Shown one piece after another: positions 6,858 to 43,300 of a stretch of 64,000 nucleotides of DNA. Below the pieces are notes generated by a model that was not told the origin of the DNA, did no database searches, and saw only the letters and a program-made list of their open reading frames with translations. The translations under genes were made by a program, and so were the position numbers. The stretch covers positions 37,564,296 through 37,628,295 of the forward strand of contig CM034548.1 of assembly GCA_020055645.1 (NCBI GenBank), in the 5' to 3' direction. The first letter of the stretch is position 1; every line of letters starts with the position of its first letter. Origin of the DNA: Tomocerus qinae. Lineage: Eukaryota; Arthropoda; Collembola; Entomobryomorpha; Tomoceridae.

Positions 6858-9800
6858 ATGAGTGAAAAGGCATGGCAGCCGCCTTCCAATCGTCTCAATT
6901 GGATTGATTTTGTCGTCATTGCCGTCTACTTCATCTTTGTTCTTGCTGTTGGGCTCTATGTAAGTACATTTTTGTATAATATAATTTGCAATATTAGTTA
7001 GTTTATTTCTAATATTGAAGCATATTTTTTGCAAAGTTGCAAAACTTAGGGAATTTAATATTTATCTATCCCTACTACATAATTAGTGTGCAAACCTTTT
7101 TTTACTGTAATATTATGTAGTAGCATATAGGTATATATTGTCTAAAGAAGCTGATGTTCGTTAAATTGAGGATAAAATTTCCACAAATAATACACTCATA
7201 TTTTCATAAGGTGCATTGATACGCATGTAACAAAAGTAAATATTAACGGTGATGACAAAGCGATTTAAGCTCAATATTTAACCTGTTTTGCATCAAAAAT
7301 ATTACATCAGATTTGCTCACAATTCATAAAGTCCCAATTACATCAAAATGATAGGATGGTCATTATGTTTAGACAACACATGTTTTCCAAATGATATCAG
7401 CAGTATACACCTCATTCCACAAATATTGTAATGCTATTGTAAAGCTGTATTATGCATTACCTGGAAACTGATAAGACCTTTTATACATATAGCTCAAATC
7501 CAGTAATGCTGATTCATGTCATTTTTTGTTCATGGCAATTTGCATGTCAACGTCTTTTGTTACATTAGACGAATATCAAAATGATAATACATCATGTATT
7601 ACATATTGCATCGCATGTCTAGGGAGTTGTATTTCCGAAAAGCTATAAGTAAATAGATGCATTAATCCAGAAGACAAAAAATATTAAGAAAAGGAGAATC
7701 GAGAACTCCGACTGCCTATCTTTCTGCCGACATAAATAATAATATCTCTTCTAATTAGATGAGTTACCTGTCTACATATATAAAATGTGTTCGCGAGATA
7801 TGTCCAATTGGTCACCTACACCTTGTATGTGTATCTTGTGCTATTATAGTAGAAAACTTGCTTAGGACATTGTATAAAGATATTAATTATAAAGGAAAGT
7901 ATACAGTGACAGATTAAATAAGTATAGGATCTGCTGCTGGTCTGTAGTAAGATTCGCTCAGATTGTGTATGGTGTAATGATGCTAATATTATTATGTGAT
8001 ACTTTGAGTCTTTGAGTCAATTCCATATGTAGTTTCCCAAAACGGCACACTTGGGAAAAATTGAAACAGTCTTATCACTGAGAATGTACTAGGGCAACAC
8101 TTTTCATGTTACAAAACTTTTGAATTTTAGGAATTAATTATTTCAAATTGAATTGTGAAGTCATGAAGTTAAATTCAATGGAAAAGCGATTACGGAAATT
8201 AAAAAAAACGACTGCTTTTCTGCAAACATCCTATTATTTTCGCACTGTTGAGTTCATTGAAATAAATCGCCTAGAGACACGTCTCTGGGAATTGGGAAGA
8301 TTATTCTTACCCTTTCCCAATTTAGACACCTTTGAACTTTGCGAAAATAAGTTTATAGTCATGAAAACTTTCAAGCAAGATTAACATACGTCTCAAAGAA
8401 ATGTGACTGCGTGACATTATGACATTAATAGAAACTGGAAATTGAATCTGTTTCTAAAAGTAGCGGCATTGACAGATCTCCAGGATAAATCTTCTCTTAG
8501 AATTTATACAGCATCTACTATTGCATTCATCTCGTATTATATAAAAGACTTGAGTAAGTACTACTGCATTGATGAAGATGAATATAACATAACATTGCAT
8601 TGCATTGGTTCAAGTATACTCAGAATATCTGAATTTACCTTTTACAGAGTTACAGCCGATATTATACGGGAATAATGTATACGGTATTATTTTTAAGTCG
8701 CAAAATTGGATTGTAGGAGCAAAACTAAAAGTAGAAATTGGTCGATTATCAGATAATAAGAGAACAATTACTACATTTAGAACTCATAGGTGACTACATT
8801 GTTTTCTAGTCTCTATTCCTAACCAAATATTTCTATGTAGTATGTGATTAGTTCTGACATGCACGTCAGCGGCATCCTAAATCTGAGATAACGGAGAAGT
8901 TTTTCCCCAAAACAGGCTAAAAATCTCAAAAATTTATTGCGTTTCGCACGAAGATGTTAAGTTTTTGCCATATTTATTAATTGTGCCCCTTGACCAAATT
9001 TCTGGTTACGTTATTGAGTTCTAGTACAAATAATTGCAGGTTGTCTGTAGCATTTATGTGTATTTATACTACACAATATTATACTAAGTATAATATTGTC
9101 GTTTCAATACATTAAAACTACGTAGTTGAGTGCATTGCCATGCGATATATATTATACCTTATGAGACATTTTCCGATAGGCATCGAAAGAAAATATATCT
9201 TGGCGATTGGGGATTATATAATGACGCAATGAATTCTGAAAGCTAGGAAATTAATTCTGATTCAGTTTCAGTTGTATGTAGATATTCAGTTCCATTAGCT
9301 CATCAATGTTAATTTGATTTCAAAACTTTACTCCGTATTGCTCAAAAATGTATGTAAATAAATATTAAGCTCACCATAAAGAATTTTATGGTTACTACCT
9401 ACAAGCTACTAGACTAGTATTAAGTGTTTCAAACCGTCGTAAAAACTTTGTCAATAATATGCGTGTAATTAAAATTGCCCCAGAATGCGCCAAGACGACA
9501 TATCAAACGACATATATGCACTTAATATTAAAATGTCTTGTCAAATGTGGTTTTCTGCAACCTGCAATCTGTAAAAATTGTAGTTTTTATATTAACAGAA
9601 AGTATAGCGAATATATACAGGTCATAGCTTTGAGGCAAACAAATAAAGTCTATCATCTAGAAGGGATGCAAATTTATTGCTTCTCGGATGACAATGATCT
9701 TTACTTTTTCACTGCCAAAAATTATTTCATCATTACAATTATAAATAACACTTTTTGGATTTTTCCTTACTTGTTCAATAATTTCAAAACCATGGTTGGT

Positions 9801-12800: not shown

Positions 12801-15800
12801 TTCAAAAGTGTTGCAGTCAGCACTTGCGTTTCACATGGTGGGAGTGGGTTTTGCGTAACGTAATATATGCAAGTTTCCTTGGTTCTCCCTACCACACGTA
12901 CATATATATATATATAGACAGGTAAATTTATTGCTTTATCAAGTCTGCGATTATATATAGAGATAGGTAATAATAATTTGAGATAAATGAATTTTCATTG
13001 GCCATTAAGTGGAAGTACTACGTTTCAACACTTTTGTTCACGTCATGAATTATGACAGAATTGACAAGACGCTTTCGTATAAAGTCATCCTTGACATACT
13101 TTTTGTGTCTGAAATGTGCTGAATTTATATTCATCTTTTCCGCCGGCACAGCATACATATGAATGAAGTCGTTTTGCATATTTATTGTTGTTGGTAAATG
13201 AATTTCGCATTTCTGCTGCCACTGAACAAACAATTTTGATTTTTGCCGACAACCATGCCTACCGATTTATTTAGAGTATCTATTTCCAATGCTTTTTCCT
13301 ACTAAACGAGAAATATCTACTGATAGAGGAAGCATTTTGCCTCAATCTTCACTAAATGTTGATTTCCACCTTCCACTTCAGCAGCACATTTATGTTCGAT
13401 ATGGATAACATGTTGACATGTTCATTTATTTTTGAAAAAATTATTATTTGATCATGTAGGTATCATGATATACACGTGCCTACCACAGGAAAATATATTC
13501 TTGAAATCTGCTTACTTTTATAATGAGGAAATGTTATAATGAATGTAGTAATTTACACAATAATACAGAGAAAGATGAAATGAAAGCATCTAATTTTATT
13601 TTGTATCTAATTGTAAGACATGCACTATAATCTAAAGTCAGTAAATCTATAATTAAAATCTAAAGTCAGTAATAACTTGGCCAAATATGGCAATCTTCTA
13701 TTGCAAATGTATATAAAATTTATTTTTCATAATACAAATCATAATAATCTTAATAAATTACAGTCATCATATCGAAGCAAGAGAGCCAGCGTGAAAGGAT
13801 ACTTTTTGGCGTCAAGGAGTATGCATTGGCTTCCAGTTGGGGCAAGTTTATTCGCAAGCAACATCGGTAGCGGTCACTTCATTGGATTGGCAGGTATTTA
13901 CATTTTCCTTTATTTTTAACGTCACTAAAATGTGTTCATACGTGGCTGAACCATTACCAATGAAATAAACGATGAGAAAATTTTAGGTTCTGGAGCTGCT
14001 TCTGGAATTGGCATTGCAGCATTTGAATTAAATGTAAGTTAGCGTAAACTTTACATATATAATTAGATAGCAATGAGTGAGCATAATTTTTAATACGTTG
14101 CTTTACATAATAAGTACGCATATTAAAATAGATTGGAGCATTTTATTTCATCAAACATCAAAAGCATATTTTAAATCACTATGGAAGTATTGTTATTGCG
14201 AAATTAATGAATTTTTTGTAGATTGTAGCAAGAAATGTAAAATGAGTTTTTTTGGAAGTGTTTAGTTATGGAAAGTGCTTAACAAAGATATTTTAAAATT
14301 GATAAACAATTTTTTTATTGATTTATAACTTTTATGTAGCCGTTACTATGTTCATTCTCGAACGTAAAATTTTGTTTTCATGCATGCATTGGAGTTAATT
14401 CTGTAGCTCCCATGGCCATAGCTCATTTATAATACAAGTCACATAAATCCATTATGTTGTACTTTGCTGAACTAATTCCACTGTTAAAGAGTGATTTCCT
14501 TTTTAATAATCTCCAACATGTTGAACTAATAACATACAAAATTGAATATATTTCAATGTTTATGAAATGCATGGGATGACATTTACTAAGGTATTACTAG
14601 AGTTCAGGACTTCATTTCTGTCTTTTATTTGCACTAATTTGCGAGCGTATTCGGAGCATAATACATAATAACATGACCATGTACTTTTTCTACAAAGGCA
14701 ATTTTCGTTCTGATGATTCTTGGATGGATATTCGTGCCCGTGTATATGGCTGCTGGTGTCTACACAATGCCGGAGTATTTACGACTTCGTTTCGGCGGAC
14801 AAAGAATCAGAGTTTATTTGGCTGCTCTCGCTCTTATCTTGTATGTTTTTACAAAGATCTCGGTGAGTCAGTGTAGTATTGGTACAAGTCTTACCCGCTG
14901 TACTTTTCATCCGCTCTTTCATTCTTGCTTTCATAGCACACTTTTAGATAATGCGATTACATTTACTTTTCATTAACAATCTAGCTATTTCTACAATTAA
15001 TTAGACCACTGCATCAACTAAAAGTGCAAAGCCTGTTTTTCAAACTTTGTGAGCTTCTATAAAGTTACTATGCTAGCTATCTATCAAAGTAGATGTATTA
15101 GTATAGGCTGCATAATATAAAAGGGAGGAAGCATCTTTAGTATCTGTATATACGTTACACCGATCATATTGGCTATAATTTCAAACACTGAAAAAAAGTC
15201 ATTTTCAACCAATTGTTAAAACGATCAATTTCCAATCTTTTCTATACAATAAGGTTTAAATACTTCGTCTTTATTTTCTGGCTCTTCTTTTATTTGGAAC
15301 CGTAGGACTTTTTCGTAATTTTTCAAGGGAAGTTAAACATCTTAAAAATGATTCACACAAAATAATGAAGATTTTGGTTAAATCGTATTAGATATGGAAT
15401 TTTCGAAATCAAGTTCTAGTTTTGACAAACCATTTTCTGTATATACGGGTCTATTAATTTGTCTGATTGAATTGGCTGTGATGACATACCTATGCCTGTC
15501 ATAATAAATATGTCCCACTTACTTATTTGAATGTTACGATTAAAGATATGAAAATACAAGCACAATAGCTCAGTGTACGAAATAAATGATGTTGTGTTTT
15601 CTGCATTTATAATAACATCCGTTTGCTTTTAAACAGAGTACTTAATAGTATTTCGGAGCCACCTCAAGCCTTATGCGAATCCTAAATCTTGTAAAATGAG
15701 AATACAGACAACTGTTGTACATATTATATGTATTGGTGCATAGATAGTATGAATCTATTGATTGCTCAGTGAGAATGTGCTACTAGTTTCCACCACATAG

Positions 15801-18800
15801 TATAATATACTAAACATTACTGATTCAACAATTCAAGAATACTGTGAAAATGTTATGCAAATAATATGCCTTTGGGAAGCATAAATAATGTTAGATTGCC
15901 TCAGATCTAAGTCGTGATAAGTTTGTTGCTGCATAAGAGTTTGGAGAAGTATCTACCAAAACAATTGAGGGAACGGAAGTCAGGTAGTGATACAGCAAAA
16001 CTAATCGATAGGCCCAAGAAAATTAATCAGCTTTGTACTAGGTATAAGTTTTTCAAGTTGTGATAAGCTAGTTGACTGCAATTGATTTTCGGAGGTAGAA
16101 CTTTAACTTACATCAGACAATTACAACTTCTTATTGAAATTCGGCGAACCTGGTAGTATAATTTATGCTCTACATGAGAAATGTTCACTAGAGAAGTAAA
16201 ACCATGACAGTTTACAAGTTGAGTCAGTATATTAAAACTCCCCATGGATATATTATTTCCGCAGTAAACATTTCTCAGACGGAGTTATACATTATATCAA
16301 ACTAAATTGCAACAGGAAATTGTGATTGTTTAGCTTGTTTTTGTAATTTTTATAAAATATCATATAGCCATGAGATAAACATGATCTTTAAAATCTTGTA
16401 TAAGTGATGGATACAGATACAATTTCAGAGCAGTATTCATAAGTTTTCTTTTACTAACAATAATCTAAAATTTCATACAATTTTAGGCGGATTTGTATGC
16501 AGGAGCGCTATTTATACAACTTGCTTTGGGATTTACTGGAGATGAGGGTCTCTATATATCCATTCTAATACTCTTAGCTATTGCAGCTCTTTTTACAATC
16601 GCAGGAGGATTAACAGGTACAGTTTCAGTATTATCGTTCTAACAATTCGAAAATAATTCAGCTCCTTAATTCTCAAATAATTTTGGAAAGGAAAAACTAC
16701 TAACCAATTATATTCCTTCCTACTATTAACGGCCTTCGTATGTTTCAATTGATAAATTACATATTACATTCATTTTAGCTGTTATTTGGACGGATTTTGT
16801 GCAAACAATTCTCATGCTAATCGGAGCTTTCATTCTCATGATACTGTGTAAGTACTTATCCTCAGTTTTAAGTTAACCATTTTAGTATTTCAGTCATGAA
16901 TGAATTTGTTACTAAATTACTGAAAATTCGCCTGTTGAAGGCAGTAGACTAATTCGTATATCAAATCGGATGCTGGAGAAATTCTTAGTAATGAACAATG
17001 AATTACCGTAGTTATACGTAAAATGGGCATTGTAATTGATGCTGCTATTTTCCACTTTATTGTTGTTCACTTGTCTATGAAATGTTGGATTTATGTACTT
17101 TTTGAGACGGTTCTTCCTCACGGCCAACGCAGCCAACCAAATATAAATAATAATTGAATAATAACGTTTTATACTATAATCTGTAGAATGTAGTATATTA
17201 TGAGGACTGATCATTCATTCAGTTGAGTGTACTTAATTGGTACTAATGGAGTGCGACTGTTTGCGTTGTCTTTGGTTTGACAGCATTCAACGTTGTTGGT
17301 GGTTATAAAGAACTGATCCGAAAATTCGAAAATGAGTCGAATCCATCTCCAAACTCTACTCTGTATGATGAGAACAATAAAAGTTGCGGCGCAGTCCCTT
17401 CCGATGCTATGCATTTATTTCGTGAAGCTACACCAGGAGCATCCGATTTGCCATGGACTGGAGTCATTTTTGGTCTAACCATTTCATCCATTTGGTATTG
17501 GTGCTCCGATCAGGTAAGGAATACGCAGTAGATTCTCTTGCTTATATTTGATACTAATTTGGTGGATTTCACTCTGAGAGGAAAACAATCAAGAAACCTT
17601 TCAAGTCCTTTGGTTACAGATAAAGGCTGATTGAACAGCCATAGCAATATTTGTTTCTATCTACATATAATGCGATGTCTACTGTATTTATCTAGCATCT
17701 AAATATCTATATGCTTTCATCCCATAGCAAAATTTACTTTCTCAAGATCAACTTAGGTCGCAGAAAAAGCTTCCTCGAATAAAAACAGTAAAATACTGAC
17801 TTCATGACTAAAAATCAATTTTCGTATCTGTCTTAGGTTATCGTGCAAAGAGTATTGGCGTCTAAAAATATGTGCAATGCCAAAGGTGGGTGCATATTGG
17901 CTGGTTATCTGAAACTGCTGCCCATGTACTTACTCGTCTTTCCAGGAATGGCTTCTCGGGTTTTATATACGGACAGAGTGGCATGTGCATCCCCAGATAG
18001 CTGCGAAAAAGTGTGTGGCTCTTCAAGTGGCTGCACTAACATTGCTTACGCTGAATTGGTCATTAACTTGATGCCAACTGGTAAGTGCACACGACGATTA
18101 CTAAAATTAATTGCTTCATTGACCTTCCAGTATATATTATGTGCGTATAGATCTTTCACAGCCATAGTCCCTACTTTAATGCCAATCGGTTACATTATTG
18201 CTTTGTAAGTATCAAAAACATTCGACTCAGCGTTCCCTCTGTCCACTAATTAAGTTTGTACAATTCAATTTGTAAGTCGAAAACTAAGTATCTAACGATC
18301 TAACAAACGTGCTACTTACTTTTGCTACTTTCCTGCAATTCCATACTATAGGACTATCAGGAATGATGCTGGCCGTGATGATGGCAGCTCTCATGAGCTC
18401 CTTGACTTCCATCTTCAATTCAAGCTCTACTATTTTCACCATTGACATTTGGACTCGTTTCCGTAAAAACCCCTCAGACACCGAACTTTTAATTGTTGGC
18501 AGGTAAAGTAAATTAATCACATATTTAATTTAAACACCCATATACGTAGAGTCTTAAGACTTTGCCTTCAAGGGGTAATTTAAACTACTCTTCGTAAGAT
18601 GTGCAGATGTCGATGCAAATATCTAAACCACTGCCGAATAATAATCTTTTGAATTTTAAGCTACATATGGAGTGTTAATTAGTAGTTGCTCTAATATTTA
18701 GATAGGTATAAGTAATTAAGTACTTTTCATTGAAACCATTCTGTAGTATTCTAAAAAACTGTAGAACTATATAACAATAGCAAAGTTTGAGCAAACAATT

Positions 18801-21800
18801 CCCGTAATATCAATTTTACAGGCCGTAATTGTTATTTATAAGGTTGCAGTTGAGTATAGCTATGCTAGACCAGTATCATAATCTTAATCAATGCTGGTAT
18901 TCGAGCTACGTCTCTCACTCACAACCGGTTTGGCCATGAACCTAAACTGGTGGTAGAATATCTTCCATTCCAGACCCTTGGGAAATGGTTGTCAGCGATT
19001 GAACCACAAAATGTGCAGTACTCTAATATATCTATAGCCAATAAAAACCGCAGAGAATAATTTGCCTGTAGATAGTTCTATATCTGTAGACTCCTGTTTA
19101 GGTAGTAGATGAACCTACTAGAATTAGCCTCTACTATATAATCACACAATGTATGAATAATTATCGTCCCACAGAATACTAACCTGAAGTATCTTCATTA
19201 AATGAAGATTATATGCATCCATTATTAATACTCTGAATTTGGAGGAAAAATACAATATTCTAATTTAAGTTGTATGCATTAAAACAATTTATTTATTACG
19301 TTAATATGTCAGTAATTATTTTGTTTTACTTTCACAAAAGGCTATCGGTGGTAGCGCTGCTGATGATATCAATTCTTTGGGTTCCCATTATACAGGAGCT
19401 AAATGCTTCTCAACTATTTATTTACATTCAACAAGTTTCCAATTTTTTGTCACCACCCGTTACAGCAGTATTTTTGTTGGCCCTTTTTTCAACAAGAACA
19501 AATGAATCGGTATGCTCATGACCTAAACTATAAATCGAATATTTTTTATATTATAAATACTAATTCTACTTACATAGCTTACAACTGATATGGTAGCCTA
19601 ATAGGTATTGATAACGGCAATGGGGAAATGGGGTCTGCTAATGGCTAAAGTCTGATGCTTTCTATATTATTTATATACAGCTTGTGTACAGATATAAGAA
19701 GACCCGTAACATAATTTCTAATTTCGAATAGAATTATTCTTTTAAAAATTCAATGCTATACAGCTTGAATGGATTCACCCCCGAATTGTCAACCCTTAAT
19801 TGTCAACACTATAACCTATTCTAACCTAACCTAACCATGTATAATTCTGTTGACAAAAAGGTGTTGACAGTTTGGGGTGGTCCCCTTGAATTTACTGCTA
19901 ATTTAATAATTAAATTTTCCAACCGAAAATTAATTTTTTTCTTGAGTATTATAGGACATGTACTAGTATAGATATTAAACTTAAAATAAATATGGCATTA
20001 TCTGAATTAAGTTTGTTTTTACGGGTGCCAGCGTTAAAGTAAGGATTTAAGAAAGTTATAACCACATTTATGATATATTTTCTCTCACATCCTTTTCCTA
20101 CCCGACTACCTCTCCATTATCACTGACTTTTGCTAAGTTGCAGGTATAAATAAGTGGTAATTACTGGTATATGCATGGGCGACTAAACATGCATTTACTG
20201 CAAGTTCAATACGTACTGTCTATGTTACGCAATAGGAATGCAATAAATTACAAGTACCTATTATTTGTCTACGTATACGCGTCTACGTACTTGTTCATGT
20301 AGCTCTTGCTTAGGTACCTCCTACCATATACCATCTATCTGACATGTTAAAACAAATCCGAATAACTGGTGGCCGATGCGCAATGGTTGGATCTCCTTTT
20401 GTGACTGGAGTTGTCTATTTTTAGTTACTTAAGCCTATAATACGATTATAGGTATATTCGTATAGAGTCAATCTTTATTAATCCTGTAATTTCAAAGCTA
20501 CTTCCCTCCTATAATGAAATTCGTGGAATTATTTGAAATTAATAACGATGGAATTGGAATACAATATAATTATAACTGAAAGTGGCTTAATATGAAAAAT
20601 ATGACTAGCATTATAACAATGAAGTAGCTTAGAAATTTTAGGATTCATAAAGATCAGAGGTCGAAGAAGGCAAAGATGTCAGTATTGGTCTGTTTGATGT
20701 TCAAAGTTCAATTATAAATAACTCATTGCGCAATGTAAAATCATCTTTGACTTTTGACAACAACACAAAAGTAATAAAGTGACACGAGTCCCTAGAACAC
20801 ATCTATACAATAACCGCACCCACAGTCTGTGAGTACTAAGTAAAATGCCAAAAATGTAAAGGTCTTATTGGTGGTATCACACAAGTTGAGAGACGCCTTC
20901 TATTCCTGAGAATTTTCCATGCTACAAAATGTTCGTAGAAATTTGGGTCGACATAATATTACATTTGGTATTTTTGGAATTTTTTGAAAGATTGAAGGAG
21001 AGTGTATTTGCGACTACATGTTGTTTAACTCAGGTCCATTTCTAAAATAGACTGACATTTGGATAGAGAATTTAGTTTCCATTTGTCCTATTAAGCTTTG
21101 CTTTTAGCATTTCTCCATTTCCACAAAAATTCACTTTCTGTAAAACTTGTTCGTTTGATATTTACTAATTCAATATTTGGTCAAGATCTAAATAATTGAA
21201 TTTTCTTCCATATCCAAATATTCTTGATTAATAGATAAAGTGCGTTTTACCAGAAGAGAAAATATACTAAAGATATGTATTGGCTACTGGGAATTTTATG
21301 CTTGCTATTTTTCAGTAACTCCACTCACTCATCCACAGACAAAATATAAAATCTATATAGTACATAGTTCAATCTAGGTACTTATTTACTACTTAGGTAC
21401 TAGGTACTTATTTTTCATCTCTTAGTGCATTAGATTCCCTCATATTTAGTAGTCTGCTTCTGAGAAACTCATTCCATCAAGCAGCTTGAAGGACATTACG
21501 TGCGGTACAAAGTGATTATTAATAATTCTAGCAGCTTCAAGGAGATTTAATTTTCTATTGTTGCTTTTTGAGAGGTATGTGGCATGTGCAAACACAAAGA
21601 AAAAACAGTTTCCAAAATAAATCTAATATCAATATTGTAGGCAAATAATGCGCAGATATATCGTCAGACTGAATAGAAATGCTTGTTCATGCTTATTCCG
21701 ACATATTGTGGGAAATTGGTGAAAGCAGAGTGCAGTTGCCGAGAAATGATATTATATGACACTATTTGCTCACTCGCATTTCTTGATAGATCTCTACTGA

Positions 21801-24800
21801 AATGTGTTAGCTCCACACAATCAAAGCTCATTCATTTATTTGATTTTATTGGGTCTATCCCGCATGTACGTATATATTTACGTAAGTCTACACCTACATG
21901 CTTATAATATAGGAATAAAACAGAGAAGTGTACACTACACGCAAGACATCATCGCAGTAAGATTTTCCATATACAAGTCTGTTATGTCAGCATTCTCTTT
22001 TACTTTTCCCTCAAGGCAAAACGTGCACTCTGTTATTGTTTTCTTTCGAATAATGTAGAATTTTTGCAAGAGAGATAGATCTAAATTGAGAATATGTACT
22101 TGTAGCTCTATTGCTTGAGAGAAAGGTGAAAAGGTCCATAATATATACGGAGAAAGGACTCAAAATAGCTCAAGCATCATCCCAGGCACTCTCAATTCAT
22201 GTATTAAGTTCGGTACCTATTTCATAGAACCTCTCCCACATGTCAGTCGTTGTCTATTAGATCTTGTTTGTTGCGGTGGTTGCGGAGGTACATTGTAATT
22301 CTCAACCTTTGCGTTATTTCTTTTGACAGAAGTAGCTCAAGCCGAATTTACTGCGAAGGAAGGAGATGCTTATGTGTCATCAAAAGCTCAAGAACATAAT
22401 AGCCAAAACTGCGTAGGAAGGTCCGTGGGTTTCTCCATAGAAAAATGGTTATGTATTTGTGTAGAAAAAAGAAACTCAGCACAATGCTATAATTAGTCAT
22501 GCTTCTCCTACTTTATACACAATAAATATTCCGCTCTCTAGTCTAATAAGGAATATTATACCAATAGGTATGACTGTAAGTAATTTCTACATATACTGGA
22601 CGAAAATTGATTTGCTATTTTATAAATATTTGTTTATTAATTATTGAATCTGAAACTTGACAGCCATATTTTTTCTGGTTATGTTAGTATTTCTGTACTC
22701 GGTTTATACGAGACATAACATTATAAAATGAAATCGGAATGGACAGACAGTATATTCCCGTGCGTAGGTAAATTGTGACAAATGTAATAACGGTGCTTAT
22801 TGTAAAATGACAACTTATCAGCATATAACACTACTACATAGGTAATAATATAGTACATATAATGTAGTTTGTAGGTGCCGTACAATTACCTATAGGTTCT
22901 CACCCTTGAGTTTAATAATTATGACATCGGATTCCCGACTCGTCTGCAAGAATAGTATTACTAATAAATACTAATCACTGTCTTCTTCATGGCCACAAAT
23001 TTCATACGCATGGATTGGGGATTTAATTGCTTAAAGAATATTATGATGAATGAAACAGGTTATTTGTTCTGGCATTGGTGGTCATCAGCATCATTTGGAT
23101 CCCAATAATATTGGCGTACCGAGAGTCCCAGCTTTTCAAATACATCCAAAGCATAACCTCATATTTGGCTCCTCCAGTCTGTGCTGTGTATTTCTCAGCC
23201 GTGTTTCTACCCAGGGTTAACGAGCAGGTGCCACAATTTCATCTTCAGAATGAGCAAATGAATGTTTGCATGTCTATTCAAAATACTGCTTAATTGACAT
23301 GAGAGGCAAATTAGTAACTGCATGAAGTATGCAAATGGTTTGTTCCTACATATCGTTGCTTCATTAATTCAACTGGATGGCAAAACTGACAATTAAATGA
23401 CATGTATTTAGTTAGAGTTGAGTACCGATTTTATCATTCCTAGACCCCAATTGAATTTCCTATGGAAATATCGTCTACATCATTTTTCGTTGCCTTTGAG
23501 TTTTCTAAATTTTTACGTAACTAATTACCTATTGAATTATAAGATGCTTGAAATTATTTTATGACAAAAATGTATATAGAACGAGAAGGCTCCGGCGCTT
23601 GTATATTTATGGAGCCGCAGTAAAGTATTTTGTGTGGGTAGAATCATATTTTAGTCATCTATAATTTCTGAAAGTCATTTGTTCATGCTCAATACATGGA
23701 ATATACTTTATATTTATGGCGAATATTCTATTGGAGAATTTTAATCTGCATAATATAATGAGAGAATGCAACTCAAATTGCATTCTATATTTTTTAGGTA
23801 CCCAGCAAGCAAGAGAGATATTTTACATATCTCTATTCTATTCCTTACTGGAGCTTTTTTGCTTTTGGGCTGGAGGTAATGAACTGTCCAGCAAGGAATA
23901 GATATGCAAAATATCTCCTTTGCTTCCGAGCTTCTAAGAAATATAGAATGAAATTTGAATTGCGTTCTGTTAATAACATTTTGACTATGTGGCTTTACTA
24001 CGGGTTTTTTTCTTTTTATAATATTTGTCCATCTTTCAAGAATATGACGAAGAAATTTGAAAGATTTGGTTTTATTAGTAAATTATAGGAGTACTGCATT
24101 ACTTATTATGTACATAGTTTTTGTCATTTGATGCGATCTAAGATCGTAGCACATGACCTTTTGCAGCAAGTAGATCTTTGAGTATACCTATATTAGTAGA
24201 TTTATGGTATATGTGATGGGGTGGTGGGCTGGTTCTGTCATCTAGCATGGACTGAACCCACTGGACCAGGATTGTGGTCTATTTGCAATAGCAATTTCAA
24301 AGGTATTGGGAATTTTCACATCTAAAGTTTTACATCCTGGGGTAGTGAAGTTTTACAACCAGCCACCGCAGTTTTACAACCAGCCACCGCAGTTTTACAA
24401 CCAGCCACTGCAGTTTTACAACCACGCACTGCAGTTTTACAACCAGCCACTGCAGCTTTACAACCAGCCACTGCAGTTATACATCCACAAACGGCAGTTT
24501 TACAACCTTACAAATGTAATGAACTCAAAGTTTGGTAAAACCTAAATAAATGCTTAATAATTATATTAAGCCGAAGTTGCTGACTTGAGATTAAAGTTAA
24601 ATGATTTTTTTTTACTTTTTTACTATTTTTACTTTTTCATCGACTGTTTTCTTTACTTTAAATGCATTAAACAACCTTTCAGCAATATAACCGTTTATTT
24701 ATTTATTTAACCATATCACTTCGTCTTAATATAATTATTAAGCATTTATTTAGGTTTTACCAAACTTTGAGTTCATTACATTTGTAAGGTTGTAAAACTG

Positions 24801-27185
24801 CCGTTTGTAGATGTATAACTGCAGTGGCTGGTTGTAAAACTGCAGTGGCTGGTTGTAAAACTGCAGTGTGTGGTTGTAAAACTGCAGTGGCTGGTTGTAA
24901 AACTTCACTACCCCAGGATGTAAAACTTTAGATGTGAAAATTCCTGGATCCATTTCAAAATGTTATCTTAGCAATGATGCACAAAGGATTTTCTAAATTT
25001 CATCAAGTAATGACAAAATAACTTTTATAGATCATTTTAATCCAACTTATTCATGTTTTCAAATCAACTGCTTAAATACGAAATTATATTGAAACATCGT
25101 TGACATGGAATAAAAGCACTGGATACTAACCTTTCACCTTTCAAATCGTTTGCACATCACTGACATAAAAGCATTTGAAAGCCGACTGTAGTCTAGTGTG
25201 TCACTGTCACAGGCCCAAGCCTAAAAAGTGTGCTGGCCTTTATCACATACATACTTGTCACAATCTATTCTATGAAGAGCATTGTTTTGTATTGAAAAGC
25301 AAGAAAGCATGTTAGAATGATATAATATAATGATATGTATTGCTGTGGAATTGATTCTGTTTTCTTTGAGATTAGATTCTCTTACACTTTACTGTTTTCT
25401 TTTCATCACTGTTGTTTACTCACGACTCACGACAACATGTACCCTACGCTCCACGAATCTTAACTTTCTTCACTTTATCGGAAAGTTTCTGCGATGTTAT
25501 TTTATCTTCAATCTTATGCTTGCCCTCATGGCCTGATTTATATGTATGAGATATGGAAAATGAATGCCTACTGCCAACATGTTAATAAGATCCACTTCCG
25601 GGCGCCTATTTAAGACCAGCTTTTACTGAACATCTCACGTTCATATAAATTCCACCTTCAAACTTAAGATGATGATTGTTATAATAACCGCATGAAAATG
25701 ACAGCCGGAAGTGGATTTTCAATTCATCCGATTTCATTATATTTCATGAATTAATAAATCTTTTACTTTCCTCGACTTTTATTTACATGCAGTTTCACAT
25801 GCACGCTTTCACTTTTACATGCTTTTACTGTAGATGTAGAATAGTAGCTGTAGAGAAAATATTAAAGTGGTGCTGCTTTGCTTAAGTTTTTTGAATCATG
25901 TAATGTTCTCTTAATGCAGTAGTCGCATTTAGCCCTCATTATAGTCGCGTTACTTTTCAAATTATAATGTAAATTTCATGGAGATTAATGGTATTTTCAG
26001 AATCTGTTTTTCTGAGAATTAGATAAGGGATACGTGACCTGGCTGCGATGGTATTTTCCAAAGTTTCTGATGCATGAAAATTTTAGCCAGCCAACAATCC
26101 TATATATCTATCCACCACAAGCTATATGTATAAAGCTTTATTTGTTTGGAAATTAATGACTACGTTAATACCATCTATTCACTGTACAGATGCTAATTGG
26201 TTGATGTTCAAAGCAAAGTTAAAGTATGTAGTGTTTATTAATATATGTCTTCTCCATATTTTACAGGGCGCATTTTGGGGATTGATGACAGGGTTGGTAC
26301 TAGGACTTTTCAGATTCGTCCTTGAGTTTGCATTCATCATTCCACCTTGTGGATCAGGTAACTTCAGACCATTCCACACATAAGTACAATTCAGGAAATG
26401 TTCAAAATAATCATTAAAATATGCTCCAATTCTTTCTTTGCTAAAACTACAATCATAGGCGAACCGGATATGAGACCGGAATGGATAAAATTGTTCATTG
26501 GTCAAGTACACTACTTACACTATGGGATATTGCTATTCATCATCACACTCATTGTTACATTTACCATCAGTATTCTCACGGAACCAATCGATCCTGAAAA
26601 GGTTTTAAAAACCATTTAGTTGTAATAAAAAAAGTGTGATTTTGAACTAGACTAAAATGCCAAATCTGGAATTGTAATAGCTGCACCGGCTGACGTATTG
26701 GACTCGAGACAGTAATAAAGTGAGGCAACCAATTGATGAACAACAGGTCGAAATTAATGCTGCTGCAGACGCTGCAAAATCTGATGAAGACACAGGTCAA
26801 ACAAACAATTCTTATAAAACTCCCATCAAATTGCATGCTCCTACTAATCTAAATACACTCATTAAATAGCAACAGATACCAAAGAAATAAGTGGGTGCCG
26901 AAGCAGAATAAACTGTCTCTGTGGCGTGGATGAGAAAGCTACAGAAATGGCCAAGGCAGAGGAAGGCCCAAAACTTTCCCGAGAAGAAGAGGCTATAGAA
27001 GCTGCAAAATTTTTACATGAACCTTCGTTCTGGAAAAAGTAACCATCTATTTAAATATTTTCAATCGAGTAAATATAAACATACAACGTCCTATTAATTT
27101 AAAATTTTTAAATCACAGATTCGTCAACTGCAATGCTGTTCTATTGATGAGCATAGCCATTTTTGTGTGGTCCTTTTACTACTGA
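6858..27185 (+). CDS. Sodium/sugar cotransporter, SGLT type (SLC5 family), with duplicated alternative exon 10
   Basis: This is a plasma-membrane Na+-coupled sugar symporter with the LeuT fold. Coding exons: 6858-6959, 13764-13893, 13987-14033, 14698-14862, 16487-16616, 16779-16847, 17284-17513, 17837-18080, 18352-18502, then 10A 19341-19509 or 10B 23059-23227, then 26267-26357, 26459-26601, 26681-26795, 26870-27038 and 27119-27185. All introns are GT-AG and all phases join, giving 673 residues against 664 in human SGLT1. Sugar-site residues match human N78, H83, E102, Y290, W291, K321 and Q457 as N67, H72, E91, Y286, W287, K317 and Q453. The four-cysteine extracellular segment ([19 protein letters not shown]) is kept. 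Residues near the Na2 site are kept apart from A385 where human has S389; bacterial vSGLT also has Ala there. Three N-glycosylation sequons lie around residues 227-245. A C-terminal helix follows an acidic loop. The start is the first in-frame ATG before [13 protein letters not shown]. The paralogue (SGLT1, 4, 5 or other) cannot be assigned by eye. Confidence 0.95.
10681..10713. repeat. Perfect 14-bp inverted repeat with 5-nt loop
   Basis: CGGACATTTAAAAG at 10681 is followed by a 5-base loop and its exact reverse complement ending at 10713. The motif TTTAAAAGTCAT recurs immediately after. It lies inside the first intron of the transporter gene. It could be a small transposon footprint or an RNA hairpin; nothing decides between these. 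Confidence 0.5.
11929..12146. mobile_element. hAT-like MITE (218 bp)
   Basis: The left end is CAAGGCTGTATTGAG and the reverse complement of the right end is CAGCACCGTATTTAG, 10 of 15 identical and both starting with CA, as hAT tips do. Flanks are TGCAGTGG (11921-11928) and TACAGTGG (12147-12154), an 8-bp target duplication with one mismatch, which is the hAT length. A GGGGGGCA / GGGGGCA block lies inside both ends. There is no coding capacity, so it was mobilised by a transposase encoded elsewhere. Confidence 0.6.
19341..19509 (+). CDS. SGLT alternative exon 10A
   Basis: This 169-nt exon starts in phase 2 (AG|G gives Arg) and ends in phase 0. It encodes 57 residues from [11 protein letters not shown] to STRTNES when spliced to exon 9 (ending 18502) and exon 11 (starting 26267). 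It covers the membrane segment that in human SGLT1 carries Q457 and T460. The equivalent stretch reads YIQQVSNF, so the sugar-contact Gln is kept while the Thr is Ser. It has 30 of 57 residues in common with exon 10B. It is the more diverged copy: vertebrate transporters read YIQSITSYL here. Acceptor ACAAAAG, donor TCG|GTATGC. Confidence 0.85.
19510..23058 (+). other. Intron between alternative exons 10A and 10B (3.5 kb)
   Basis: The intron carries no third copy of exon 10 that I could find. It contains a short palindromic element with arthropod-telomere-type CCTAA units (19776-19879) and otherwise AT-rich sequence without recognisable features. It is far too long for simple steric exclusion of splicing between the two exons. 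Confidence 0.7.
19776..19879. repeat. Small palindromic element containing CCTAA repeats
   Basis: The left end CACCCCCGAATTGTCAAC (19776-19793) pairs with GTTGACAGTTTGGGGTG (19863-19879), allowing one gap and one mismatch. A second GTCAAC motif lies inside each arm. The centre holds CTAACCTAACCTAACC (19821-19836), about three units of the arthropod telomere repeat. It sits about 270 bp downstream of exon 10A. It is probably a small MITE; three telomere-like units alone prove little. Confidence 0.5.
23059..23227 (+). CDS. SGLT alternative exon 10B
   Basis: This is a second 169-nt copy of exon 10 with identical phases, encoding [11 protein letters not shown] to LPRVNEQ. The sugar-site stretch reads [12 protein letters not shown], almost the vertebrate SGLT1 sequence, so this is probably the ancestral-like version. 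Acceptor GAAACAG, donor CAG|GTGCCA. If 10A and 10B were both included, 10B would be read out of frame and meet TAA at 23218-23220. If both were skipped, exon 11 would be frameshifted and stop early. Either copy alone restores the frame. Confidence 0.88.
23228..26266 (+). other. Intron after exon 10B (3.0 kb), host of a foldback element
   Basis: The intron contains the 650-bp foldback element at 24302-24951. The remainder is AT-rich with no recognisable gene. Open frames of 60-80 codons on both sides of the element are artefacts of its 21-bp repeat unit. Confidence 0.75.
24302..24951. mobile_element. Foldback-type transposon with arms of 21-bp tandem repeats
   Basis: Two inverted arms, 24302-24577 and 24718-24951, flank a 140-bp centre. 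Each arm carries tandem 21-bp units of the form GTTTTACAACCAGCCACTGCA, followed by a conserved unique stretch ending near TATATTAAG. The left arm is 42 bp longer than the right, exactly two repeat units. The element is bracketed by ATTTCAAA (24294-24301 and 24952-24959), a perfect 8-bp target duplication. The 21-bp period equals seven codons, which explains the open frames translating to repeats of FYNQPLQ in both arms; I do not regard these as genes. The architecture resembles Drosophila FB elements and long-TIR MITEs; no transposase is present. Confidence 0.8.
26624..26629 (+). promoter_or_regulatory. AATAAA inside SGLT intron 12 (possible intronic polyadenylation)
   Basis: The intron 26602-26680 has a weak donor (AAG|GTTTTA). 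Read through, it adds VLKTI and stops at TAG 26617-26619. AATAAA follows 5 bases later, then a GT-rich stretch (GTGTGATTTTG) as expected for a cleavage site. Use of it would give a shorter transporter without the C-terminal loop and last helix. Spliced exons on both sides are well supported, so this would be an alternative form. Confidence 0.4.
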
Positions 27186-27832: not shown

Positions 27833-28454
27833 TCACTGAGTTTGACTATTCTCTGATTTCGTCGTTGTCGCTGTGTCGTCTTCTGCTCTTCGTAATTCTT
27901 GATCGAGTCGCTCTTTGGCTCTATATATTTTAGATTGTAGATAAAAGGAGCCACCCTTATTTTTGTCATTTAATTGAAACAGGCGGTCGTACTGTTTCTG
28001 AACTTCAGCCTTATCACATTCTGGTGTAATATTCAATATCTGTTTTGCTTCTTCCAATGTCATTCCAAGTCTGACATTTGCTGCAGCTGTGCGACTGTCT
28101 CCACCTCCAGTTCTTCCTCCTCCAGAATTTCGAGCAGCAGCGGCCTGTTGACTGGCCTATTTAGAACATTTTGACGGATGTTTTAAGTTACAAGCTAAAG
28201 AGATCCAAAATTTTACACACAATAGTATCTGAACATTGTCTTCAATATTATAATTTCAATTTTGGATGTTGGGGTAGACCTTATTTACAATTGTTATCAT
28301 ATAGAAATTTATCAATATAGTTAAAATTAAAGCTTTAAAATTAAATCAAATGATAATTTAAACAAACCTGATATTCCTGCTTTACTGCTCTGGCAAATGC
28401 CCTGCCCACGGCTTGTGACCCAAGAATTATTATCTGAGCTAGATATTTGGCCAT
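27833..28454 (-). CDS. PAM16: PAM16/TIM16 (Magmas), presequence translocase-associated motor subunit
   Basis: PAM16 is a peripheral inner-membrane protein of the TIM23 import motor. It pairs with the J-protein PAM14 (TIM14) and holds back its stimulation of mitochondrial Hsp70. Two coding exons on the minus strand, 28368-28454 and 27833-28156, join in phase 0 across a 211-bp intron and give 136 residues; the human protein has 125. The N-terminal [20 protein letters not shown] is the typical membrane-associated segment. A Gly/Ala/Ser-rich linker follows. The degenerate J-like domain runs from [11 protein letters not shown] to [10 protein letters not shown]. The signature GGSFYLQSK is present, and DKN stands where true J-proteins have HPD, as expected for this family. 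The polar tail is Thr/Ser-rich. The first exon is only 29 codons long but its start and splice donor (CAG|GTTTGT) are clear. Confidence 0.95.
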
Positions 28455-37385: not shown

Positions 37386-40300
37386 TCAAACACGCGCTGG
37401 AAAAATAACCGAATTGTTGTTGACACGCAGAGGAGTGGTGTCATTGGAGTTCTCATCAGGCTCTGACATCTCCATTGATGGGAAGTCGTAACCCGGATTC
37501 AAAATTATGTTCGGCATTAATTCAATGCTTTCTCCATCTAAATCTCTTGAGTCGCCATAATTTGACGAATATTCTTTGTAGAAAAGACAGCACGTGGCTA
37601 TACCCAGAATGAACAACGTGGAGATCACAACTGCGACGGCAATTATCCATATTCTCACATCGAATGTGTCGATCCCATCAAGTAAATGCTTTCCCAGTTC
37701 TGTAATTTTAACAGGCACCAAATGTAAATGACATCGTAATTGGGATACCACTATTAAAATGATTAAAATGGTTTTAAGCCAGCATCTGCACTCTCTGTTC
37801 ACTATCGACGCAAATTATCGTAGAACAAAAGAACACATTATAAAAATTATACACCGAACTGCAAAAAAATAGTATCCATAAAATGGAAATACATAAAAAG
37901 GTAAACGTATGGCAATGAAAAATTATTTTATAGGAAGCAATCTGGATTTACGGAATATTTGTCTTACACTCCAGTGAGCAATACCGAACATTCAAGATTT
38001 AACAATAGTGGAATGGTAAGATAAATCGTGTTTTGACATCTCATTGTAATAAAAAATGTAACTACAATTGATATATCTTACCTATTTCTTGCAGATCATT
38101 GTGTGTTGAACTTTCTACAATTGTACTATTTCCTCTCCCAAGCTGGTTACTTGCCCACATTTGAAAAAGGTAAGTTGAGTTGGGATGCAGTGGAAACACA
38201 TTAAACTGTCTCTGCAATAAAATTTGAAATATAGATGCACATTTATTTTACTCCATAATCTCCTCATCTAGTAGACATTTACATAATAAATCCATTCATA
38301 TCCATTATCAAGTCACAGTCAGGCTCAACATCATAATAAATGCCTAATAAAAATGCGCTCTACACATTTATGTATATCTCATATAAAATTGTACATACTA
38401 AACCTTTACTTCGCTTCAAATTCGCAACCCTAATAGTTTTTAAGTGTGAAACTCATGTCATTAAAATCAATTCAGTGGAAGTAAATACCAAGTGGTTTTT
38501 TAGTAAAAATGGTCTAATATAGCTAAAATATACTATAATGTACATATTCGCAAAATATATATAATCATACCCATGTAAGTAGTATATGATAAATACATCA
38601 ATAATGAATTTCGCAAAGATTAGGGATTAAGCGTATTTTCATCCTCCTGCCTGCCGTTGGCCAAACAAACTCTATTTCATGGATGGAAGCCGACTTTCAG
38701 CACAACATCTTTCGCTTAATACCCCTGAATAAACCTTGGAAAGGATTTCAGCAAATACTCTGAGGTAGCAGATGTTGCCTAAAGAGATCTAATAAAGTAA
38801 TAATACATTATATCTAGATGATGTTATTATGGTATGAGTCTAACCCTTCGGCCACATCACTGTAAATACTTTTTCGATCTAATCGTCGAGAGTCTTCATC
38901 TGCAGTATTGCAGACGGAATGAAGTACTTTCAGCAGGGCCGCAACCAGAAAGCATTGTCAATGGGGGCACAACAAACTATTTCTCCTCAAGGGCCAAAAA
39001 TACTTCAATTTATTGCCTTTTCAGACAAAAATCTTCCTATTTTCTTGGATGTGAGACGGGGGCCCGTACTTCAATGTATCCCCTGGTTGCGGCCCTGGCT
39101 TTCAAAGATAGCGAAAGTCTGGTACTTTAATTAACGGAAATAATTAGACTGCACCTTTTCATCATGGAGTTAATCCCATATTGAAATTGCGGATCTATTT
39201 TATGCTTTCATAAAAGAGATATTATTACCAATAGAGAATAACGATACATAAAATACCCATACGTATAGCCTACCGTATTAAAAACAAACTTTCATACAGG
39301 TTCATACAATTTTTAATTTCTAAGATGCCTCAACTAAAAACTTTATTACTTAGTGTTGATTTTAATTAAGGATTACACACTATTGCAGTATTAAAGAAAA
39401 AATTAGACTTACAGAATGCGGGCTGATGTATTTTGGAGGACAAACTTTCCAGTCCTTCTCAGTGGCATTTTTTAACCGATACGTTAGTGTAAAATTTAAA
39501 ATTGGATATCCTGAATCTCTATCGTCATCGATTTCCCACATTACCAAGGCTGCTATGGTTGAAGGCAATACTGTGATATTCTTCAAGACATGCGGCGGAG
39601 CTGTTAAGAAAAAAGTGACAAATAGGCCAATGAATTCGATGGGATCAAAGGAAAACGTTATAAAAGAAATTTCAAGTTGTTAGAGGTAATTGAAATCCGG
39701 TTAAAATCTAGGTTGCTAAATTCACAAAGCCGGAATAAATTTTTTTGATGATCCTATATCACTCGAGTCTTGAGTGCACATAATAGGAGCCATAATATTT
39801 GAGGGAGCAAAGAACATTTCTTCATCAAAGTGTGGAGAGAGGAGATCGATCATTGGAATTGTAGAGAGTGTGCAGTCAAGTGCAGACACGATGATTCCCC
39901 TCCGTACACATTCTGATTGGGACTTTGATGCTCATTACTTCCCATGCACCAGTCAAGATACGAGTTACCACACTTCAGATCAGACAAAGCTGAGAACTCG
40001 GTCTAATAGTATCACTGTTCTACGGAATGGGATTTCCAAAGCATATATAGTCTTATGTAGGTGATACTCAAGAAGGAATTCTAAGACAGGTACTTTATCT
40101 CAAGTAAATGTTTGTGAACAAACACCAAGTCGTATATTTTAGGGGAAAGATGCATGCATAGAGAATCTCTCAAGGCGACTTACTTCGAACACAAATCCGA
40201 ACACGGGCTTCAAAGGAGTCTTCATTGGGCACACTGAAATGGGAATCACTATCATCGCTATCTTCTTGGCGACAAGAGTATAGACCGGAGTCTGATTGTT

Positions 40301-43300
40301 GCAAACTTGGAAAAAATATGCTGCCATCCTTTTGAATTTGATTTCTAGTGATACCTAGATCTCTTCCGTCCCTTACCCACATCACCGCGCCGACTTCTCG
40401 TCCTTTTAACCCACCGCACGGCAAAGTCAAGTTAGCTCCCAAATCCACCAAGATAGTTTGAACTTCTTTAGTAGCTGGAGTTCTGTCTCTTGTGAAAGGA
40501 GCGCCTACAACCACAAAAACACTTTTTACATTTTTGCATCAGTCAACAAATCCAAAACCATATCGTTTAGCATATTCCTTGTGGATCTCTGAACAAAACC
40601 CACTTGCGGATCTTTTTTATATACTAACATGCTTTACAAACATTTCCAACTTGAGCGTTTGAAAGTGACATTTATAAAGTTACCTAGGTGTAATGCCAAA
40701 CATAACAATAACACATTCTCCTTTCACGCAAGTGTAGTCTTGCACTTTTTATACACAACCCAACTTTTCGTAAACAAGCACTACCGAAAGTAACAAAAAC
40801 TTCAAAAGAATTTCCCCAGTGAATATAATTGATGGAGCTATCCTTTTGTCAACATAATATCATGTGGCGTTTAATAATAATGCAAAATGTAATAACATTG
40901 AGTAGAGCAGTCCCATATGCATACGCCACGCTTCCTTTTTATTATCATAATTTGCAAACACATTTCCCAAATAACCTTATCCCTTGCAAATATTGAGACC
41001 CACTAAGTGAAGGCCTACCTAGTTTGAAAACGATACACTGGATAATTATATGGATAAATGTATGCTACAAAATATATAGTTACTAGTCATCATGCTACAG
41101 TTCCCAATTTGGAAATCTGGAGCTTCTCTGATATTCCATCATATTACTATTATTACGCACGTGTGAGGCTTGTGTTGCAGCTACAGGAATATTCAGACAG
41201 AGAGAACAATAAATATAGACATATCTACAGCCTACTTTAACGAACCCTAAAAACCGACCACAAGCAAAAGCACAAAGGCACAATTCACAAGATAATATTT
41301 TTAGAGCTGAACAACAGTGCACTCTTAAATAGACTCAGCGAAGCTTAATACAAAAGCATAGTTACATTATTTAATAACAATGGATACGTACTGGACTGAA
41401 AACACTTATAGGGAAAGTACCTAGAATTAGAATAGCTTGCAGAATGAATATAATGAAGAGTCGACTGCATGAAGATATACTTTATATGAACATTGAGTGA
41501 AGAAAAATTGTAGGATTAGGCGGAGAAAGTTAAATACACATGACTTAAGTGTAGGGTGGAGAGCCCTTAAGAATTCAGGAGCAATAAGTAGTTATCATGG
41601 GAAATGCTAGTATCTACCTACCTACAGAGACTAATGAAGTTTTGAAGTCCTCTCCATGCAACAACGCTTCTTTTGCTACGTGAGCAATAGACTGTCCTTA
41701 ATAACCCGTATGAGAATAGGGAATGAGGGGTGGTTCAATACCCGGCAAGATACAATGCAAGAGAAAACCAGTTTTCCACAATGCGACTTTCCTTCCACTC
41801 CATGTATCCCTTTAGATCCCAACAAAATGTTCCTACAACTCACTGTTCTTTTGAATCTTTGTCGACTTTCATTAAAGAATAAACCAACAATGGCATCAGT
41901 CAATGCAATCCTCTCATCCCAATTGAACATCCTTGATTGTAATAGTAATCTCTGAGCTCTAGAATGAGAAACATCCCGTACAAACTCATTTTGGGCAATT
42001 TTTTCTGCAAGGCTTGGCTATAGAGTTGGGTATGCCCAAATTGAGTATAATATGGTAGTACTATTATATACTTAGTCCACTTGATACCTACTAGGACTAC
42101 TCTCATGACTCTCAACTCTTGCAGTTTTTCTTGCTCTACGTACAACGGAATAGCATTGCATGGACAGTTCCAGAAAATTCTCGTTTCTACCACTAATAAC
42201 ATCAATGGCATTCTACATTCTTTTGAAGACGTAGTCAAAGTCAAACTTGAAGAGCCTAAAGCCAAGACGAATGCTGATGCTGAATGTGGGATGCACGTAA
42301 CATATAAAGAACAAGACTGGGAAAATGCAAGGACAGAATTCTAGTGGTACCTCGATAACTCCATGACTCAACTTAAAATTCATCTAAAAATAGCCTATTC
42401 AGTCGTTGAGAAAGAAATGTACTTCATTCACTTCATCATTTTGTTTTTTAATAATTTGCAAGGGATATTGATTAATTTTAGAAACTTTTGGCAAACTGGT
42501 TTTGTAGAACTTTTGAAAGCTCTAGTCTACCACTTCAAACATTTCCAAAGCAAAAGGAAAAGTTAAAAAGTAGCTAAACAACAGAATTGGTTTTTGCAGT
42601 TCTGAGCATTTTTAGAGCTTCCATTCAACGAGCACAGTAAGGCTTTATTCGAGCAGAGTATTATTTTGGAGAGGTTTCCCAGTTTGGTATTATTACAACT
42701 TATTTTAATTACATTATTCTTTATTTTGACGATAAAAACAAACATGCGGATTTTCTGCTCTTTAATGTACGTAACCCTAAAAGCCTTAAATTGACAGGGA
42801 CATGAACATGGTTTTAGGCCAGGCTGAATTTTAGGTAGCTAAAAGGGTTTAGTACTGGAAGGAAATGTAGTGAAACGGCAATTTTCCGGGAGAAGTTGTC
42901 TGATAGCAGTAATTATCATTGACTAGAGAATGTTCTATACGTTTTCATGGCTTTTATTCAATATTAATAGAGGACACGACATATGACTGGCAGCAGTAAT
43001 ATAAAAGCACTACATATTATTATTACGTAATAGGCTATGCCAATGTATGTGCTTTCAATCGTAGAGACGTAGAAACAGCTCGGAGAAAAGAGGCTTTATT
43101 AAGGAAGCTCGGCTGGTTGAGTAAATCCAGCCAACCCATGCATTGAATAGAGCCGTTTCCTACACATTGTAAATACGCTTCACTTCACAGCACTGAAAAC
43201 CAAAATTCGAACATGAGATGTACTGCTAGTTCGTAGTTGGTACATCCAAGTTCTGGAACCTTTCAGATCGAGAGAAACTACAAGAGAAAGCTAAACCGCT

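Follow-up and report, generated by a model that had tools for sequence, protein, structure and literature searches.

A candidate pair of mutually exclusive exons in an SGLT-family transporter gene of Tomocerus qinae

Does a single sugar transporter gene of the collembolan Tomocerus qinae encode two proteins? The window analysed here, a stretch of 64,000 nucleotides (nt) at G000:C3:37564296-37628295 of the 334-Mb genome that was searched, carries a gene of the SGLT (SLC5) family in which the tenth exon occurs in two versions, 10A and 10B. The original prediction held that these exons are used one at a time, that they swap the sugar-contact helix, and that transporters of different sugar preference or affinity could result. 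It is very probable that one gene gives rise to two full-length Na+/sugar cotransporters through mutually exclusive use of 10A or 10B. In favour of this exon pair stand its lengths and phases, its splice sites, its homology and frame logic, the constraint on its protein sequence, and an origin that seems to predate the local gene duplications, while the part of the prediction that concerns sugar preference is kept as a hypothesis.

Exons 10A and 10B

The two exons and the stop codons that bear on their use lie as follows.

19341-19509, plus strand: exon 10A, 169 nt, encoding transmembrane helices (TM) 9 and 10, of the type common to three paralogues
19510-23058, plus strand: spacer from 10A to 10B, 3549 nt
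23059-23227, plus strand: exon 10B, 169 nt, encoding TM9-TM10, of a divergent type present in this gene only
23218-23220, plus strand: TAA met when 10A and 10B are both included
26283-26285, plus strand: TGA in exon 11, met when both copies of exon 10 are skipped

Direct comparison bore out the length, phase and similarity first given for the pair. Both exons are exactly 169 nt long, are preceded by AG and followed by GT, are entered in phase 2 and left in phase 0, and agree at 30/57 residues and 92/169 bases. Matches by codon position number 35/57, 40/57 and 19/57, which on this alignment is a coding pattern. The 57 codons comprise 8 that are identical, 22 with silent differences and 27 with residue differences. 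In genome searches each exon, used as query, found the other (E 4.3e-12 and 2.6e-12). Similar length, compatible splice sites with the same frame, and similarity between neighbours are the three sequence criteria of PMC3228551, and all are seen here; the part of that paper drawn on reports that, on the Drosophila X chromosome, only 90/16,180 non-exclusive exons, in six genes, satisfied them.

With 10A alone or 10B alone the gene reads through 673 amino acids to the TGA at 27183-27185. Because 169 is not divisible by three, an early stop follows when both exons are included or both are left out: the TAA foreseen at 23218-23220 is indeed reached on double inclusion, and the TGA at 26283-26285 on skipping. 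The same arithmetic would suit a pair acting mainly as an on/off switch, in which double inclusion or skipping gives a decay-prone mRNA and so tunes the amount of transporter. For such a switch, however, a poison exon would do, with no need for 57 constrained codons or for a full frame with 10B alone. A pair serving chiefly this purpose is highly unlikely, although tuning of this kind could be an additional effect beside two isoforms.

Might 10B belong to another transcript or gene altogether, as part of a nested gene, as an alternative 3' end, or as an assembly artefact? The 3.5-kb spacer and the 3.0-kb intron downstream offer room for such an arrangement, and the downstream intron contains a dispersed repeat. 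Against this, splicing exon 9 to 10B and 10B to exon 11 keeps the frame open as far as the normal stop, and a genome search with 10B returned only itself, 10A and three paralogue exons (5 matches, E up to 1). The remaining SGLT exons have no convincing duplicate either: their next-best tblastn matches in the window are short, with E at least 0.027, and an exon 10 profile finds no convincing third copy (next match E = 0.067). We regard a foreign origin of 10B as extremely improbable.

Another possibility is that splicing once used 10B and has since abandoned it, so that 10B survives as a relic and 10A is the sole functional copy. The state of 10B speaks against decay: it has no stop or indel, its AG and GT are intact, its length is still exactly 169 nt, and its changes are biased to third positions. 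Silent divergence between the copies is saturated (dN 0.42; dS undefined), so a neutral simulation was used in place of dN/dS. Starting from 10A and run to the observed DNA divergence, it retained on average 15.6 identical residues and at most 26/57 in 20,000 runs. A stop-free frame survived in 4.4% of runs, and 0/20,000 were both stop-free and matched at 30 or more residues. The simulation introduced substitutions only; with indels and splice-site loss left out, the test is conservative. By this measure 10B is a product of protein-level constraint rather than of neutral decay. At the 27 sites that differ between the copies, moreover, human SGLT1 or SGLT2 is matched by 10B at 14 and by 10A at only 9, again at odds with a decaying exon.

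The transporter and its exchanged segment

The whole gene was assembled from homology and splice sites. It has 15 exon positions at 6858-27185 on the plus strand, with GT..AG at every intron. Exons 2-9 are based on GT/AG, phases, open frame, the Pfam SSF domain and alignment to human SGLT1; the homology behind exons 13-15 is weaker than that for the remaining exons.

6858-6959, plus strand: exon 1, with the start ATG and an N-terminal helix, placed by homology to the paralogues' upstream exons
13764-13893, 13987-14033, 14698-14862, 16487-16616, plus strand: constant exons 2-5
16779-16847, 17284-17513, 17837-18080, 18352-18502, plus strand: constant exons 6-9
26267-26357, 26459-26601, 26681-26795, 26870-27038, 27119-27185 (stop TGA), plus strand: constant exons 11-15

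The protein matches Pfam SSF (PF00474) with E about 1e-129, and the two isoforms score almost equally over their first 557 residues (433.2 and 433.7 bits). In phmmer searches human SGLT1 structures aligned across residues 14-672. Structure 7sl8 was matched at 3.1e-216 and 4e-219 by the two isoforms; near full-length alignments to human SGLT1 (SLC5A1, PDB 7WMV) had E 1.2e-205 for the A isoform and 1.1e-207 for the B isoform, and those to human SGLT2 (SLC5A2, PDB 7VSI) 4.8e-202 and 2e-204, respectively. The sugar-contact residues N78, H83, F101, E102, Y290, W291 and K321 are retained, all in constant exons, which also carry three sugar-site changes: T287 to Ser (as in human SGLT2), M283 to Leu and L286 to Ser. 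Among the residues that we take to form the sodium sites, A76, I79, S392, S393 and T395 are retained and S389 is replaced by Ala. On these similarities the gene product is a member of the SGLT/SLC5 family and a predicted sodium-driven sugar transporter.

Exon 10 corresponds to human SGLT1 residues 427-483, that is TM9 (residues 427-449 in the topology that we assume), followed by a loop and by TM10, which carries Q457. The swap of a sugar-contact helix holds insofar as TM10, with positions 457 and 460, lies within the exon; it is not a matter of one helix, as TM9 is exchanged too. PMC12605011, a review, assigns TM4 and TM9 to the hash motif and calls TM5 and TM10 gating helices.

F453 and Q457 are common to 10A and 10B. 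The alignment to human SGLT1 upheld the expected Gln at 457 in both copies and the Ser (10A) or Thr (10B) at 460, together with the expected differences among their helix neighbours: 458 Gln/Ser, 459 Val/Ile, 461 Asn/Ser, 462 Phe/Tyr and 464 Ser/Ala. Residue 454, Asp in human SGLT1 and SGLT2, is Ile in 10A and Lys in 10B.

Two structural papers, PMC9616851 and PMC10803289, place residue 460 in the pocket lining, close to the sugar C5/C6 substituent, and give it as Thr for SGLT1 and Ser for SGLT2; according to PMC10803289, a water contact at S460 adds little to inhibitor affinity. The T460/S460 split is thus distributed over two genes in human and over two exons of one gene here. As the same split separates SGLT1 from SGLT2, both glucose transporters, and as the S460 contact is judged minor in one of these papers, an altered sugar preference is plausible but hypothetical. 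An altered affinity or gating would be at least as likely and is the safer prediction. In the relevant passage of PMC12809628, human SLC5A11 (SMIT2/SGLT6) has F, I, Q and S at 453, 454, 457 and 460, the same letters as 10A; the comparison is limited to these four positions, of which only 2 vary between 10A and 10B, and the agreement is a lead only. The corresponding letters of 10B (F, K, Q, T) are matched by none of the six proteins in that passage.

Paralogues and the age of the pair

Of the five matches obtained in genome searches with 10A and 10B, two are these exons themselves and the other three fall in three paralogues, one exon apiece. Two paralogues stand in tandem on C1 (L009 and L010; G000:C1:124068000-124086000) and the third on C2 (L011; G000:C2:45383000-45391500). 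The single exon 10 of each is 169 nt long (3/3, with boundaries placed by homology). Its flanking introns measure 76/72, 83/76 and 112/101 nt; all are shorter than the exon, and a hidden second exon of that length is therefore excluded. The paralogue exons agree with 10A at 41, 41 and 40 of 57 residues and with 10B at 26, 25 and 29. At the 27 differing sites, at least one paralogue is matched by 10A at 20 and by 10B at 5. An exon-10 tree of seven sequences, with one of its four inner branches starred, groups 10A with the paralogues (support 100/98). A recent duplication of 10A into 10B had been the first guess; the exon-10 tree rejects a clade of 10A and 10B (p-AU 0.009).

On the constant exons, branches from the fork shared with the paralogues, itself weak (41/10), are 0.10 for this gene, 0.27 for the C2 copy and 0.24 plus 0.02-0.03 for the C1 pair, suggesting that this gene is the least changed since the paralogues parted. 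A single origin of the three paralogues is compatible with the constant-exon tree (p-AU 0.40), so that one loss of 10B could suffice. The path from 10A to 10B is 1.19, about three times the constant-exon paths from the gene to its paralogues (0.37-0.43) and comparable in size to the path to human SGLT1 on the constant exons (0.98); rates may differ between the two data sets, and these lengths give no date. The exon duplication appears to be older than the gene duplications, with 10B then lost from the copies.

Two further observations concern the paralogues themselves. In the C2 copy, 0 nt separate the exons at the positions of introns 2 and 5 of the window gene, and these two introns were apparently lost. 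The exon 10 sequences of the C1 tandem copies are alike at 51/57 residues, with an NG86 dS of 0.16 over exon 10, which points to a fairly recent local duplication.

Eukaryotic comparisons were made with the T. qinae genome and solved structures; the other relatives compared, the best 80 of at least 587 from a genome scan, are all bacterial, judging by their titles. These 80 resemble 10B at positions 458 and 462 and 10A at 471 and 473, and at 460 all of them (80/80) have Gln, unlike either copy. Both copies of exon 10 are, on this comparison, changed from their ancestor. We considered 10B as a plain retention of the ancestral form and dropped this reading: the bacterial cells match 10A in 498/2160 and 10B in 484/2160. 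Viral contigs were scanned for 10B joined to exon 11; the 30 pattern matches included no relative.

Choice between the exons and its significance

Several points weigh against exclusive use of 10A and 10B. All three paralogues (3/3) do without 10B. In a splice-site model built on the four SGLT genes (50 donors, 50 acceptors; 35/38 paralogue introns used), the 10B donor, CAG/gtgcca, is weak, ranking 8/50 from the bottom, while that of 10A ranks 28/50. Competing intron pairing, sought in four docking-site arrangements in this one genome, was in no case below shuffles (9, 16, 16 and 14 of 20 shuffles as low). Neither copy is clearly favoured by the bacterial relatives (10A better with 43/80, 10B with 24/80, ties 13). 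The exon-10 tree, finally, has 57 columns only and a weak human root (70/82), so the split of 10A and 10B is placed neither before nor after that of insects and vertebrates.

The first two of these points would also favour 10B as a relic, and a form of that explanation, very recent loss of 10B use, may apply. Given the constraint on 10B described above, we nevertheless consider a relic unlikely. The donors of constant exons 12 and 14 score below that of 10B, so its weakness carries little weight, and both acceptors are middling (ranks 25 and 30 of 50). The donor ranks would be consistent with use of 10A by default and regulated use of 10B, a point of equally little weight.

For the mechanism of the proposed exclusive choice, the 3549-nt spacer argues against steric interference, for which it would be too long. 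The donors here are unlike the minor-spliceosome consensus, and a clash of two spliceosomes is accordingly unlikely. Stretches around 10A and around 10B share similarity at best at E 0.15, and Rfam (gathering scores) and tRNA scans of the window returned no matches. Decay of wrong products is allowed, in the part of PMC6071210 used here, as a scenario for exclusive exons whose length is not a multiple of three; the frame logic of the 169-nt pair fits such removal and could by itself suffice for an exclusive choice. The spliceosome would thus pick one of 10A and 10B, and products of double inclusion or skipping would be cleared by nonsense-mediated decay. The choice would replace TM9 together with the gating helix TM10, while the sugar core stays constant and Q457 is present in either version. 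Residues 454, 458-462 and 464 would be the means by which affinity or gating, and perhaps also the range of substrates, is retuned. In the duplicate gene copies only the 10A version would have been kept.

The intron between 10B and exon 11 contains a fold-back element at 24309-24944, with 21-nt tandem units in both of its 187-nt arms, which are 98% complementary. It is a dispersed repeat with at least 173 genome matches (40 of 262 candidates scored). A smaller inverted repeat in the same intron, at 23756-23975, has 42-nt arms that are 83% complementary. Directly downstream of the SGLT gene and tail to tail with it lies a Pam16 (TIM16-like) mitochondrial import gene (27833-28156, minus strand; Pfam Pam16 1.5e-30). 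Farther along is an immunoglobulin-domain reading frame (40170-40538, minus strand; V-set 2.8e-6, 27.9 bits against a cut-off of 26), and two minus-strand frames neighbouring it have no Pfam match at E 0.01.

Mutually exclusive exon pairs are already known as a kind. Those of SLC25A3, SLC39A14 and MRP1, the last of which we take to be a transporter, are backed by RNA or expressed sequence tag data, whereas the SGLT pair is predicted from sequence; the SLC39A14 pair changes metal uptake. All three belong to families and folds other than SGLT. As described in parts of PMC5740500 and PMC6071210, an internal exon comes in alternative versions in SLC25A3 and SLC39A14 (human) and MRP1 (insects), in membrane transporters as here. 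The Dscam, 14-3-3zeta and Mhc clusters likewise draw one exon from a set duplicated in tandem, as proposed for the SGLT pair; PMC6071210 associates them with docking/selector pairing, whereas none was detected at the SGLT pair.

No exclusive exon pair in SGLT/SLC5 was found in the literature searched, which did not extend to the Drosophila catalogue 10.1038/ncomms3460, so that absence from print is not established. None is described in the portions of PMC7275387 and PMC5426614 covered, and the main text of a survey of human exclusive exons (PMC5740500) names SLC5 zero times. A database paper (PMC3923563) covers flies, Arabidopsis, C. elegans and human. Three findings seem new here: the exchange spans two helices, each of the three paralogues has one exon 10 of the 10A type, and the exon pair appears to predate the gene copies.

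A bolder proposal, which we offer tentatively and think somewhat less probable than its negation, is that of an ancient two-exon switch in arthropod SGLT between an SGLT1-like (T460) and an SGLT2- or SMIT2-like (I454, S460) pocket, of which later gene copies fixed one option. If this is true, splicing diversity came first and was partly replaced by gene duplication, and the same pair would be expected in other insects.

SGLTs are among the best-studied transporters and a diabetes drug target. A natural exchange of the TM9 and TM10 cassette, with the rest of the protein identical, would offer a clean test of the part that this segment plays in affinity, gating and sugar choice. The exon tree would likewise provide an example of a splicing choice seemingly older than the gene copies that each keep one option.

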